The notes under the pieces: generated by a model
Told to the model about the DNA's origin: nothing
What the model saw: only the letters and a program-made list of their open reading frames with translations
The model's database searches: none
In this document: positions 12,378 through 15,332 of the stretch, one piece after another
How positions within the stretch are numbered: the first letter of the stretch is position 1
Layout of the letters: each line of letters begins with the position of its first letter
Translations under genes and position numbers: made by a program
Origin: Bryobacterales bacterium
Lineage (GTDB): Bacteria; Acidobacteriota; Terriglobia; Bryobacterales; Bryobacteraceae
Direction: 5' to 3'
Assembly (NCBI GenBank): GCA_947446025.1
Contig: CANFEY010000025.1
Span: 1-59,846 of the forward strand
DNA length: 59,846 nucleotides

Positions 12378-12974
12378 CTACGGCACGAACTCAGCCTTCT
12401 TGATGTAATCCAGCTTTGGGAAGCGTGGGACCAAATACGCGTTGGCCGCTTCCTCCACTTTGCCCGCGTCAATCGGACCTTCCGGCATCATCTCGCCATA
12501 GCCGGAATAGAGCCGGTCCACCACATCCATGCCTTCAATCACCCGCGCGAAGGGGGCGAATTTCTGTTCGTCCAGCAGCGGATTGTCGCGCAAGTTAAAG
12601 AACATCTCCGTGGCGCGCGTCGTGGGACCGGCCTGCGCGTAGGTCAGCGTACCCCGCGTGTTGCTCAACACCCTCGGGTCATCCAGGATGAAAAACTGCC
12701 GCCACATGCGGTTGGTCTCGTAATCCTTATGGACGCCGAACTGCGCGATGAAGCCCGGCACCACGCGGTAAAAGCGGCTCTCCTTGAAGTGGCCCGTCCC
12801 AATGAGTTCATGAAAACGGTCGACGCCGCGCGGTGCCCACTTCCGCTGCGCCTCCACCACGATGTCTCCGGCCGACGTAGTGAACTTCACCTGGAACATC
12901 TCCGGCACGGTGACGGGTTCCTTGGCGCACCCAGCCAACAAGGTCAACAGAGCCAGCGGTATCCACAAGCGCAT
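12378..12974 (-). CDS. Cyclophilin-type peptidyl-prolyl isomerase lipoprotein
   Basis: 198 residues from the ATG at 12974; the upstream extension has no signal and overlaps the divergent TPR gene. Residues 1-16 form a lipoprotein signal (LLAGC, Cys16). The body has cyclophilin features: FTTSAGDIVVE, APRGVDRFHELIGTGHF, SRFYRVVPGFIAQFG, and a FARVIEGMDVVDRLYSGYGE end. It is predicted to catalyse proline isomerisation in the periplasm. The start codons of this gene and the TPR gene lie about 30 bases apart, back to back. Confidence 0.9.
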   Translation of the reverse strand: MRLWIPLALLTLLAGCAKEPVTVPEMFQVKFTTSAGDIVVEAQRKWAPRGVDRFHELIGTGHFKESRFYRVVPGFIAQFGVHKDYETNRMWRQFFILDDPRVLSNTRGTLTYAQAGPTTRATEMFFNLRDNPLLDEQKFAPFARVIEGMDVVDRLYSGYGEMMPEGPIDAGKVEEAANAYLVPRFPKLDYIKKAEFVP

Positions 12975-13005
12975 TGCAACGATTCTAGCGCTGTATGATG
13001 ACGGT

Positions 13006-14103
13006 ATGCGATTCCTCATCGTGCTTGTAGTGGCTGGCTCGGCGTTCGCGCAGGAGACGGCGGCGGAGCTGGACGCGCTGGCGGCGCAATACCGTTCCGC
13101 AGGCCGCTTGGCCGACGCGGACGTGGTGCTGGACCGCCTGCGCACCATGGACGAAACCGTCAGCCACGTGGAGCAATCCGCTCGTGTGAAAGCAGCGCTG
13201 GGGCGATGGGCGGATGCGCAGGTGCTCTATGAGCGCGCGCTGCGGCTGCGGCTCGACGCGGACCCTCAGCCCACAGCGTCGATTCCCACGCGGCACCAGT
13301 TGGTGCAGACGCTGGTGGCGCAGAAGAAGTTCGCCGAAGCTACGCAGCAGGCCTACCTGGCTACGCGCCTGCGCATCATCGAGCTGGGGCCGTCGCATCC
13401 CGACGTCGCCAACGACACGGCGGTGCTCGCGCGTGTGTATCAGACGGAGCGCAACTGGCGGCCGGCAGCGGAGACGTGGGAAACGGTGGTGCGCATTCAA
13501 GGAGAGGCCCACGGTCCCGAGGACTTACGGCTGGCGAATTCACTCGATGACTTGGCGGTGGCCTACAAAGAATTGCAGTCCATCCCGCAGGCCGAAGCCG
13601 TGCTGCGCCGCGCGCTGGCCATCCGCGAGCTGAATCAAGGTCCGTCGCATACAGACGTTGCGCACACCACCGATGAGCTCGGCCAGCTGCTGTACGGGGC
13701 GCAGCGTTATGCCGAGGCCGAGCCGTTCTTCGAACGTTCGCTGGGGATCTACACGGCGTTCTGGGGTCCTGCAAATCCGCAACTGGCACGCAACCTCGAC
13801 AATCTGGCGGTCACCCAGGCAATGCTGCAGAAGTTCGCGGAGTCGGCGGAGCACTATGGGGCCGCGCTGAAGATCCGGGATGGAGAGACCGCGCTGAACT
13901 TGCATCATCTCGCGCTGATCGAGGCCGCCAGCGGGCATGCGGAAGCAGCGGAGCCGTTGTATCGCCGCCTACTGACGCTGCTCGATACGCCGGGCAACGA
14001 GCGGCCCGAGCTTCGCGCCGCGGCGGCCAAGGAATATGACGAGCTGCGGCCGAATCTGCCGGCCAAGCGTTCCAAGGCCCCGGTGGCGGCAAAACAAAAA
14101 TAG
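13006..14103 (+). CDS. Exported tetratricopeptide-repeat protein
   Basis: 365 residues from ATG 13006, which begins a clear signal peptide ([16 protein letters not shown]). The rest is tandem TPR/NPHP-type helical repeats of about 42 residues, with [25 protein letters not shown] and [13 protein letters not shown]. Such repeats bind protein partners. No catalytic domain is visible and the role is unknown. It ends in a basic [12 protein letters not shown] tail. The DAHP-synthase leader begins about 40 bases downstream. Confidence 0.85.
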
Positions 14104-14125
14104 GCCCGCACGGCTTGCAGACGTG

Positions 14126-14134
14126 TGGTATACT
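14126..14134 (+). promoter_or_regulatory. Extended -10 promoter of the aroF leader
   Basis: TGGTATACT is a TGn-extended -10 (TATACT at 14129-14134). No good -35 lies 16-18 bases upstream, which extended -10 promoters can tolerate. Transcription should start near 14141, only 1-2 bases before the leader-peptide ATG at 14143, so the mRNA would be essentially leaderless. Predicted from sequence only. Confidence 0.6.
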
Positions 14135-14142
14135 AGTTTTTC

Positions 14143-14196
14143 ATGACTCGCTCCTTTACCTACTCGTTCCGATTTTGGTTCCGGTTTCTCGGCTGA
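14143..14196 (+). CDS. Aromatic-amino-acid leader peptide of the DAHP synthase attenuator
   Basis: A 17-codon frame encodes [17 protein letters not shown] and then TGA. Seven residues are aromatic (five Phe, one Tyr, one Trp), six of them within 11 codons. It lies directly upstream of a terminator and of the first gene of aromatic amino-acid synthesis, as in the pheL/pheA type of attenuator. When charged tRNAs are scarce the ribosome should stall on the Phe/Tyr/Trp codons and favour the antiterminator. No Shine-Dalgarno precedes the ATG; translation is probably leaderless. Confidence 0.85.
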
Positions 14197-14201
14197 CCAA
14201 A

Positions 14202-14241
14202 GAGTGGGTGTGCGCGATTCGCAAGTTTTCACAGCCCACTC
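14202..14241 (+). promoter_or_regulatory. Predicted antiterminator hairpin upstream of DAHP synthase
   Basis: GAGTGGGTGTG at 14202-14212 can pair with CACAGCCCACTC at 14230-14241 (seven pairs, one bulged G at 14234, four more pairs). The 3' arm contains most of the 5' arm of the downstream terminator, so the two structures exclude each other. The 5' arm starts 5 bases after the leader stop codon, so a ribosome resting at that stop would cover it and allow termination. Confidence 0.7.
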
Positions 14242-14263
14242 GAAAGAGTGGGCTTTTGATTTT
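14233..14263 (+). terminator. Rho-independent terminator (attenuator) before DAHP synthase
   Basis: AGCCCACTC (14233-14241), a GAAA tetraloop and GAGTGGGCT (14246-14254) form a perfect 9-bp stem, followed by a T-rich tract TTTTGATTTT. It stands 28 bases before the aroF start and after the leader peptide, the position of an attenuator, not an end-of-operon terminator. Confidence 0.88.
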
Positions 14264-14291
14264 AGAGAAGAAAATAACTGAGGTGAGACCC

Positions 14292-15332
14292 ATGATCGTA
14301 TCCATGCGCCGGCACGCCACCAAGCAAGAAGTGGAACAGGTCCGTGCTCGAATTGAAGAGCTGGGGCTGAAGGTCCACTCGATTGAAGGCGAGGAGCGAG
14401 TGGTCATCGGTGCCGTGGGCGTGGGCGACATCACATCGTGCCTCGAATCGCTGGAGGCGATGGAGCAGGTGGAAAAAGCCGTCCGCATCTCGGCTCCCTA
14501 TAAGTTCGTCAGCAAGGAGTTCCGCGCGGCGCGCACGGAAATCAAGGTCGGCAAAATGGTGATCGGCGGCGGCGACAACTTCCCGGTGATGGCCGGTCCG
14601 TGTTCGGTGGAAGGCGAGAAGCAGATCATGGAGTGCGCGGAGATCGTCGCCAAGCATGGCGGCCAGGCGCTGCGCGGCGGAGCGTTCAAGCCCCGCACCT
14701 CTCCCTACGATTTCCAGGGCATGGCCGAAGAAGGCCTCAAGCTGCTGGCCAAGGCCCGCGACGCTTTCGGCCTGCCGATCGTCACGGAAATCATGAGCGA
14801 CACGGAAGTCAGCCTGGTTGCGCAGTACGCCGACGTGCTGCAAGTGGGCGCGCGCAACATGCAGAACTTCTCGCTGCTCAAGACGCTGGGCAAGTGCGGC
14901 CGTCCCATCCTGCTGAAGCGCGGCATGAGCGCCACCGTTAAGGAACTGCTGATGTCTGCCGAATACATCGTCGCGCACGGCAACCCCGACGTGATGTTGT
15001 GCGAACGCGGCATCCGCACCTTTGAGACGGTCACGCGCAATACCTGCGACATCGGCGCAGTGGCGGCGTTGAGCGAACTCACCCACCTGCCCGTCATCCT
15101 CGACCCCAGCCACGCCACCGGTAAACGCAGCCTGGTTACCGCTGTTGCCCGTGCGGGTGTTGCCGTGGGTTCCGACGGTTTGATTGTCGAGATGCACCCG
15201 AATCCGGAAAAGGCCTGGAGCGACGGCGCGCAATCGCTGACGCCCAAGCAGTTCGCGGACATGATGACGGAACTGCAGCCCTACATCGCGCTGTGGAAGA
15301 AGTCCCGCGCCGCGGAAGCCGCGCACGCCTAG
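14292..15332 (+). CDS. aroF: 3-deoxy-7-phosphoheptulonate (DAHP) synthase
   Basis: 346 residues. It condenses phosphoenolpyruvate and erythrose-4-phosphate, the entry step to Phe, Tyr and Trp. An N-terminal ferredoxin/ACT-like regulatory domain (about 1-70) precedes the TIM-barrel with [42 protein letters not shown] and [10 protein letters not shown]. This is the AroA-I-beta/AroG-type single-domain form seen in Thermotoga and Bacillus-like enzymes. The start at 14292 is chosen because GAGGTG precedes it by 6 bases and the longer frame would cross the terminator. Expression is probably set by the leader-peptide attenuator; the N-terminal domain suggests feedback control as well. Confidence 0.96.

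Follow-up and report, generated by a model that had tools for sequence, protein, structure and literature searches.

Positions 14292–15332 of the plus strand of a 59,846 nucleotide contig from a Bryobacterales bacterium (the window, i.e. the whole stretch of DNA analyzed) encode a predicted 346 amino acid DAHP synthase (3-deoxy-7-phosphoheptulonate synthase), the enzyme for the first step in the synthesis of aromatic amino acids. A short open reading frame rich in aromatic codons and a set of repeated complementary segments lie directly upstream, which raises the question of how they act on the gene. The reading proposed here, to which we assign a probability of about 0.86, is that the locus controls the DAHP synthase gene as a ribosome-mediated transcription attenuator, the leader peptide being translated from a leaderless transcript. 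Translation of the leader very probably decides whether transcription continues.

Anatomy of the locus

The enzyme is of the TIGR01361 type (382 bits, cut-off 268) and also matches the NF006421 profile (475 bits, cut-off 335). It is one of two DAHP synthases in the genome. A Shine-Dalgarno-like sequence of the gene, GAGGTGAG, is found at positions 14280–14287 of the plus strand. The reading frame is open further upstream to a TTG codon at 14115 (positions 14115–14291), thus automatic annotation may set the start too early and hide the leader. The TTG codon was rejected as an extended DAHP synthase start; the leader is in another frame and the Shine-Dalgarno-like motif is at the position given above.

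The leader open reading frame is at positions 14143–14196 (plus strand) and consists of 17 codons followed by a TGA stop. The peptide has five Phe, one Tyr and one Trp, as the first-pass annotation of this DNA had read it, and counterparts are present among 83 distinct loci, with that of the window included. An extended -10 sequence, TGG-TATACT, is at positions 14126–14134 of the same strand, 8 nt from the leader ATG at 14143, and relatives have a counterpart box. From this distance the transcription start is predicted at positions 14141–14143, i.e. at the ATG or within about 2 nt of it. The promoter scan gave no sigma-70-type match and a consensus -35 is absent, so the promoter call depends on the extended -10 and on the conservation of its spacing. 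There is no Shine-Dalgarno-like motif before the leader of the window, and there is one before its DAHP synthase gene. On the minus strand a terminator-like hairpin is seen at 14104–14122, just past the stop codon of the upstream open reading frame (12862–14103).

Four segments of the plus strand take part in pairing. Segment 1, ACCUACUCG, is within the leader open reading frame at 14158–14166 and pairs with segment 2 if the ribosome is absent, although it is not a general competitor among relatives. Segment 2 (14202–14212) is the 5′ arm of the antiterminator and has a GAGUGGG core at 14202–14208 and an extension; the counterpart of this helix was counted in relatives. Its core begins 5 nt past the leader stop codon. 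Segment 3 (14229–14241), with a CCCACUC core at 14235–14241 and an upstream extension, is common to antiterminator and terminator. Segment 4, GAGTGGG at 14246–14252, follows a GAAA loop and is the core of the terminator 3′ arm. Thus the stretches 14202–14208, 14235–14241 and 14246–14252 are mutually pairing, and the last two form the terminator.

The intrinsic terminator extends over positions 14233–14264, with a stem of 14233–14241 and 14246–14254 around the GAAA loop and a T-rich tail at 14255–14264, TTTGATTTTA. It was found mechanically at 14233–14254 in a scan that gave 2 terminator-like sites in 601 bases, compared with a shuffle mean of 0.7. The perfect terminator with a T tract, and the alternative hairpin at 14202–14241 that uses most of the terminator 5′ arm (GAGTGGG at 14202–14208 with CCCACTC at 14235–14241), had both been described from the letters of the sequence and are present as described. 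The first-pass annotation had also suggested folding of the leader region. This fold is better than shuffled sequences (z = -2.43, with 3 of 200 shuffles as good), which is a modest signal alone; the leader region is considered to be beyond chance because it is conserved in relatives.

Conservation and distribution in relatives

DAHP synthases of the type found in the window were searched in 61 related genomes, and 70 upstream regions were read (the 30 closest and 40 more). These are a subset of the matches found, made up of the best match of most genomes and 15 that were hand-picked at 50–56% identity. An open reading frame scan, which used no promoter or hairpin criterion, led to acceptance of an aromatic leader in 35 of the 70 regions. 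Acceptance falls off with distance: the leader is present in 25 of the closest 30 regions, in 9 of the 25 that come after these (60–74% identity) and in 1 of the 15 hand-picked ones. The other 35 are without an accepted leader and include three candidates dropped before alignment A1, i.e. L028 (degenerate), L037 (no terminator) and L047 (unconvincing). Typical leader peptides of relatives are MNRSFASSYRFWFRYFSG, MLSAASSFRFSYWYFTV and MRKAYVSSFTYRYWRWAR. One locus of the same genus, L011, has kept a promoter-like TATACT and a CCCACTC/GGGTGGG hairpin upstream of DAHP synthase while the leader open reading frame is missing, and looks like a lost leader.

The hairpin motif CCCACTC-N3-8-GAGTGGG is present at a single place in the 4.43 Mb genome, which is the locus of the window. 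Over the 61 genomes it is found at 39 places in 35 genomes, and 33 of these are at a DAHP synthase gene (coordinates were matched by hand).

A covariance model was built from the 35 leaders (A1 and R1). In the class, 138 of 299 genomes have matches at E 0.001, a rough cut that lets in some bare terminators among the weak matches. The strong matches, which score at least 39.9 bits and are all full length, number 99 rows in 97 of the 299 genomes and belong to families f1, f4, f6 and f7. Sixty-two of the 99 were inspected, 13 of which are elements of the training set of the model, and 60 of the 62 have a DAHP synthase in the same orientation within about 180 nt downstream. The remaining two are L121, which is cut by the contig end just past the DAHP synthase start, and L136, which is at a contig edge. 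At L156 the covariance match begins inside the protein.

A search across the phylum gave matches in 39 of 297 genomes drawn from it. Two full-length matches outside of the class are among the matches listed, in G340 and G500; the others listed comprise the 3′ part of the model only, mostly the terminator, and the one that was read (L180) sits after a tRNA. The G500 match (L276; other class) is full length with 26.4 bits and precedes a DAHP synthase of 58% identity. A GTG-started open reading frame, MLPGSFPSSCSRSAPVCIFWYFFSPVGGRWGP, which holds FWYFF, is ahead of this gene, and a -10-like box close to the start of this frame was not seen. In named genomes, the best 80 of at least 594 DAHP synthase loci yielded 11 full-length matches, all in Acidobacteria, Terriglobia or Bryobacterales, e.g. 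Candidatus Sulfopaludibacter.

The 35 loci from the open reading frame scan and 48 from the covariance model make up the 83 distinct loci (L111 was removed as a duplicate of L036). Aromatic codons amount to 35.1% in the leader frame vs 9.1% and 7.5% in the other frames, where the in-frame value is inflated by the choice of loci partly for aromatic content. Phe, Tyr and Trp are all present in 75 of the 83 leaders.

Covariation in the terminator and antiterminator

The terminator helix is the best-paired element, with 98.1% of cells paired over the 35 leaders. Changes on both sides are seen at 5 of 9 pairs vs 2.1 in shuffles, and none of 500 shuffles reaches this.

The antiterminator is found in two forms. 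A short form, GAGUGGG with CCCACUC, is present in most loci of the genus of the window. A longer form, GAGUGGCGUUGG with CCAACCCACUC (one bulge), is present in most other loci and in L009, L016 and L032 of the genus. Covariation in the antiterminator was counted on 13 chosen longer-form sequences, which are 12 from outside the genus and L032, the second copy in a same-genus genome; alignment A2 left out L053, L057 and the same-genus long-form loci L009 and L016. In this set 90.2% of cells are paired (1 of 500 shuffles reaches this), both-side changes are at 4 of 11 pairs (3 of 500) and in 5 cells (12 of 500), and there are 7 further pair types (47 of 500).

Segments 2 and 3 were also compared as duplexes, own vs swapped between loci. 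Over 35 loci, one of which (L021) is mis-anchored, the values are -14.5 vs -13.6 kcal/mol (49 of 10000 permutations reach this). The 14 loci outside of the genus give -15.8 vs -13.6 kcal/mol (7 of 10000), and the 21 loci within it show no covariation in the swap test (2793 of 10000). Thus covariation of an antiterminator that competes for the terminator 5′ arm is detected outside of the genus, with no signal within it. The first-pass annotation had named a lack of conservation of the aromatic codons and of both hairpins in relatives as grounds for giving up an attenuator; both are conserved, and the hairpins covary.

Since segment 3 serves both helices, any change in it would need compensation at two places, and this need would explain the high sequence conservation of the arms. 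The conserved arms could also be read as a binding site, GAGUGG(C)GUUGG/CCCACUC, for a trans-acting protein or ligand which takes the place of the ribosome. High conservation of primary sequence is what such a site would display, but the pairing of segment 3 with both segments 2 and 4 would already force conservation at three places; in addition no Rfam family is found at its threshold and the aromatic leader is left unexplained. This explanation is scarcely tenable and was rejected. A T-box or other known riboswitch was likewise rejected, as no Rfam family reaches its gathering score in the window.

Predicted operation of the switch

In the proposed attenuator, transcription would start at or just before the ATG, and a ribosome would load on the 5′-terminal AUG without a Shine-Dalgarno sequence and translate the 17-codon peptide as RNA polymerase advances. 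A shortage of charged tRNA for Phe, Tyr or Trp would stall the ribosome between Phe5 and Phe13, on top of segment 1, with segment 2 still accessible. The latter would then capture segment 3 as the antiterminator before segment 4 is made, and transcription would run into the gene. When all three are plentiful, the ribosome would reach the stop codon and cover segment 2, and segments 3 and 4 would form the terminator.

Masked folding of the window agrees with this scheme. The assumed ribosome footprint reaches from the A-site codon 15 nt upstream and 12 nt downstream, with segment 4 not yet made. Any stall between the start codon and Phe13, the stretch Phe5–Phe13 included, gives an antiterminator probability of 1.00. 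This drops to 0.12 for Phe15 and to 0.03 for the stop codon; without a ribosome, where segments 1 and 2 pair at 0.69, it is 0.31. The alternative arm, noted earlier as starting 5 bases after the leader stop, would therefore be masked by a ribosome at the stop codon. Ribosome-mediated attenuation of the pheA/trp kind, as first suggested for this locus, is well supported, and the masked folds of the window follow the pheA/trp logic.

Of the seven aromatic codons, six are in the range where a stall is predicted to be sensed, and between them they stand for Phe, Tyr and Trp. The suggestion that all three aromatic amino acids are sensed would hold for these six codons and not for Phe15, where a stall is predicted to fall outside of this range; all three amino acids would probably count. 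The antiterminator forms just as well when the stall is at the start codon or at a non-aromatic codon as far as Phe13, thus the specificity would rest on which codons are slow.

Masked folding was extended to the 78 loci with a recognized terminator (the finder did not recognize one in L133, L148, L149, L151 and L157, which were left out). The measure used here counts any upstream pairing of segment 3. Its mean over the 78 loci is 0.81 for stalls, 0.62 without a ribosome and 0.42 for a ribosome at the stop, and 71 of the loci score lower at the stop than on average across their stalls. An effective codon is present for Phe in 68 loci, for Tyr in 61, for Trp in 56 and for all three in 52. By the same measure 12 of the 78 loci combine at least 0.8 at the best stall with at most 0.2 at the stop. 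The antiterminator value without a ribosome is 0.4 or less in 21 loci and 0.7 or more in 36. Pairing of segments 1 and 2, which is seen in the window, is not general across relatives, thus an untranslated leader probably behaves differently between species.

The full RNA at equilibrium forms the terminator under every mask (p34 0.83–1.00). The antiterminator must therefore form first and persist, and kinetics would decide the outcome. This preference, together with the terminator being the best-paired element, is what would be seen if the hairpin were a constitutive premature terminator that just lowers transcription, with a chance open reading frame whose peptide has no role. The excess of aromatic codons in one frame only, the covariation of the antiterminator and the position of segment 2, which starts 5–11 nt past the leader stop in 25 of 35 loci, argue against it, and this explanation was rejected as hardly credible. 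The features found are those of an attenuator, i.e. a conserved aromatic leader open reading frame, a terminator between leader and gene, and a segment 2 that is predicted to be freed by a stall and masked when translation finishes.

Probable leaderless start of the leader

A -10-like TANNNT about 10–12 bp upstream of the start codon, without a Shine-Dalgarno sequence, is the mark of leaderless genes in the accessible part of a genome survey, where leaderless genes are predicted in 3 of 3 Acidobacteria genomes at an average of 13.3% (PMC3160421). Leaders of the present family carry this mark. Of the 83 loci, 75 have TANNNT at 6–10 nt upstream of the leader start codon, compared with a mean of 7.8 and a maximum of 16 in shuffles, and the spacing peaks at 8 nt (28 of 83 loci) and 9 nt (33 of 83). 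The covariance model contains this spacing, which biases the 48 loci that it contributed in favor of it, but the 35 leaders from the open reading frame scan are a promoter-blind and unbiased set, and 30 of these have the box at 6–10 nt. Thus the extended -10 spacing that had implied leaderless loading in the first-pass annotation is conserved. A Shine-Dalgarno-like 4-mer is present at 1 of 83 leader starts vs 24 of 35 DAHP synthase starts (in 7 flagged loci the DAHP synthase start is a few nt off). Together these sequence features strongly indicate leaderless loading of the leader.

Family f8 displays a different arrangement. Five loci (L137, L171, L272, L273 and L274) have an aromatic leader, e.g. 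MNSRRFYFYRGWLGR, ahead of the same gene. In 5 of 5 loci read a Shine-Dalgarno-like motif ends 5–9 nt before the leader start and the -10-like boxes are 19–59 nt away; these represent five of the six genomes listed, L171 and L272 are nearly identical, and the start codons were picked by eye. Segment 2 of f8 seems to overlap the end of the leader open reading frame. This sister family is apparently a leadered version of the switch.

It is conceivable that the attenuator is real and that the leader of the window is nevertheless on a short leadered transcript, with a start several nt upstream and an unrecognized ribosome site. The 8 of 83 loci without a TANNNT box at 6–10 nt and the leadered appearance of the related f8 loci are in keeping with this. 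It is quite unlikely, as the spacing is concentrated at 8 and 9 nt, close to the leaderless mark as given in the accessible text of PMC3160421, and Shine-Dalgarno-like motifs are nearly absent from the starts. A leaderless leader remains the preferred reading. Because the counterpart in the sister family looks Shine-Dalgarno-led, the two families offer a natural experiment on leaderless initiation in a timed race of transcription and translation.

The second DAHP synthase of the genome

The other DAHP synthase of the genome is of the aroFGH type (L278:1465–2562, minus strand; TIGR00034 487 bits, cut-off 173). The same open reading frame filter showed no aromatic leader upstream of it, where only pieces of upstream coding frames passed. 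This gene is preceded by a tRNA-like sequence (the tRNA was read by eye). The two DAHP synthases may thus be controlled differently, and as the second gene is without an aromatic leader, the switch would not be the sole control of entry to the pathway but one arm of it.

No type II DAHP synthase was found in the genome. A 31% relative was rejected as a further copy, as it is KDO8P synthase. No aromatic leader was found upstream of three other genes of the same genome, two chorismate-binding ones (trpE/pabB-type) and one of pheA type, where the filter let through coding-frame pieces only.

Comparison with known systems

The enteric pheA, pheST and trp attenuators likewise work by hairpins that compete and a ribosome that stalls. 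Their leaders are Shine-Dalgarno-led and answer to one amino acid each, and to our knowledge they are not found on DAHP synthase genes. The aroR-aroF attenuator transcripts of Corynebacterium glutamicum are said to have been called leaderless by Neshat et al. in 2014.

A close likeness is to AroR/aroF of C. glutamicum, where a leader peptide with adjacent aromatic codons (Phe-Tyr-Phe) also precedes a DAHP synthase gene and the attenuator transcript has been detected, according to the accessible text (PMC4046766). The aroF attenuator belongs to a different phylum and, unlike in the window, is described there with no mention of Trp; the likeness is one of description. A second source, as far as its accessible text goes, gives the attenuator as Phe-responsive with Tyr having no effect (PMC11802643). 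In Sinorhizobium meliloti the trpL/rnTrpL RNA begins at the ATG of the leader open reading frame and is described in the available part of the source as a possible small leaderless mRNA (PMC7298713). It resembles the window in having the leader open reading frame at the RNA 5′ end (as predicted for the window), and differs in that it controls trpE(G) and senses Trp, with trans functions reported for peptide and RNA. Several leader peptides of Streptomyces lividans (leuL, trpL, ilvL and others) are leaderless before amino acid genes (PMC8079986); unlike the window, no DAHP synthase case is mentioned in the accessible part of this account.

The best Rfam match is Trp_leader (RF00513), whose full model is covered at positions 14170–14261. 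The score of 19 bits (E 0.12) is below the gathering score of 41, thus the sequence does not belong to this family. No report of an aromatic attenuator in Acidobacteria was found among the literature matches listed, and an earlier prediction is possible; a 2016 survey names Acidobacteria, in its accessible text, solely for leader-gene distance statistics (PMC4833913).

The novelty is therefore less than the first-pass annotation had implied when it set the leaderless leader apart from enteric examples, given the DAHP synthase attenuator of C. glutamicum and, in the accessible accounts, the leaderless leaders of Sinorhizobium and Streptomyces. DAHP synthase attenuators and leaderless leader peptides are already known as kinds. 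What is new is the phylum, the trivalent peptide, an RNA family that is below every Rfam threshold and the leaderless/leadered contrast. A gene, a likely signal and a mechanism are given across a large part of a class.

Enteric bacteria have separate isoenzymes for the end products of the aromatic pathway. If trivalent sensing is true, a common-pathway enzyme would here be tied to all three end products by one peptide. A wider and rather unlikely proposal is that a single leaderless peptide of about 14–27 codons reads the charging of tRNA-Phe, tRNA-Tyr and tRNA-Trp and sets an entry enzyme of the shikimate pathway, with the loading mode having been switched between leaderless and Shine-Dalgarno-led within one class. 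The terminated RNA of about 120 nt would then be a mini-mRNA without a leader and might have trans effects of the kind reported for S. meliloti rnTrpL/peTrpL.

Other leader peptides

Several weak matches of the model in genomes of the class (L132, L135, L138 and L139) are Cys-rich leader peptides with a terminator, e.g. MTSIIIPAGNSTCCCCCCPRVPAWEGLP. The genes that follow are NirA/sulfite-reductase-like in L132 and L135, a peroxiredoxin gene in L138 and one for a YeiH-type putative sulfate exporter in L139, gene calls whose family scores are below curated cut-offs. These loci resemble cysteine attenuators, and in some of them a -10-like box sits near the ATG.

The G340 match (L172; other class, same phylum) has the leader MDVQPAGANNYFWCWYRQGGWSAF and a terminator, with TATTCT located 8 nt upstream of the ATG. 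The gene downstream is trpE-like (TIGR00564 462 bits, cut-off 517.7) and runs off the locus. L172 is likely a leaderless aromatic or Trp attenuator. Tyr/Phe-rich short open reading frames, e.g. MNKKFYAFAYNYYYYFTNVK, are also found upstream of DAHP synthase in the Clostridia-type loci L229, L238 and L260, which are possible independent aromatic attenuators.
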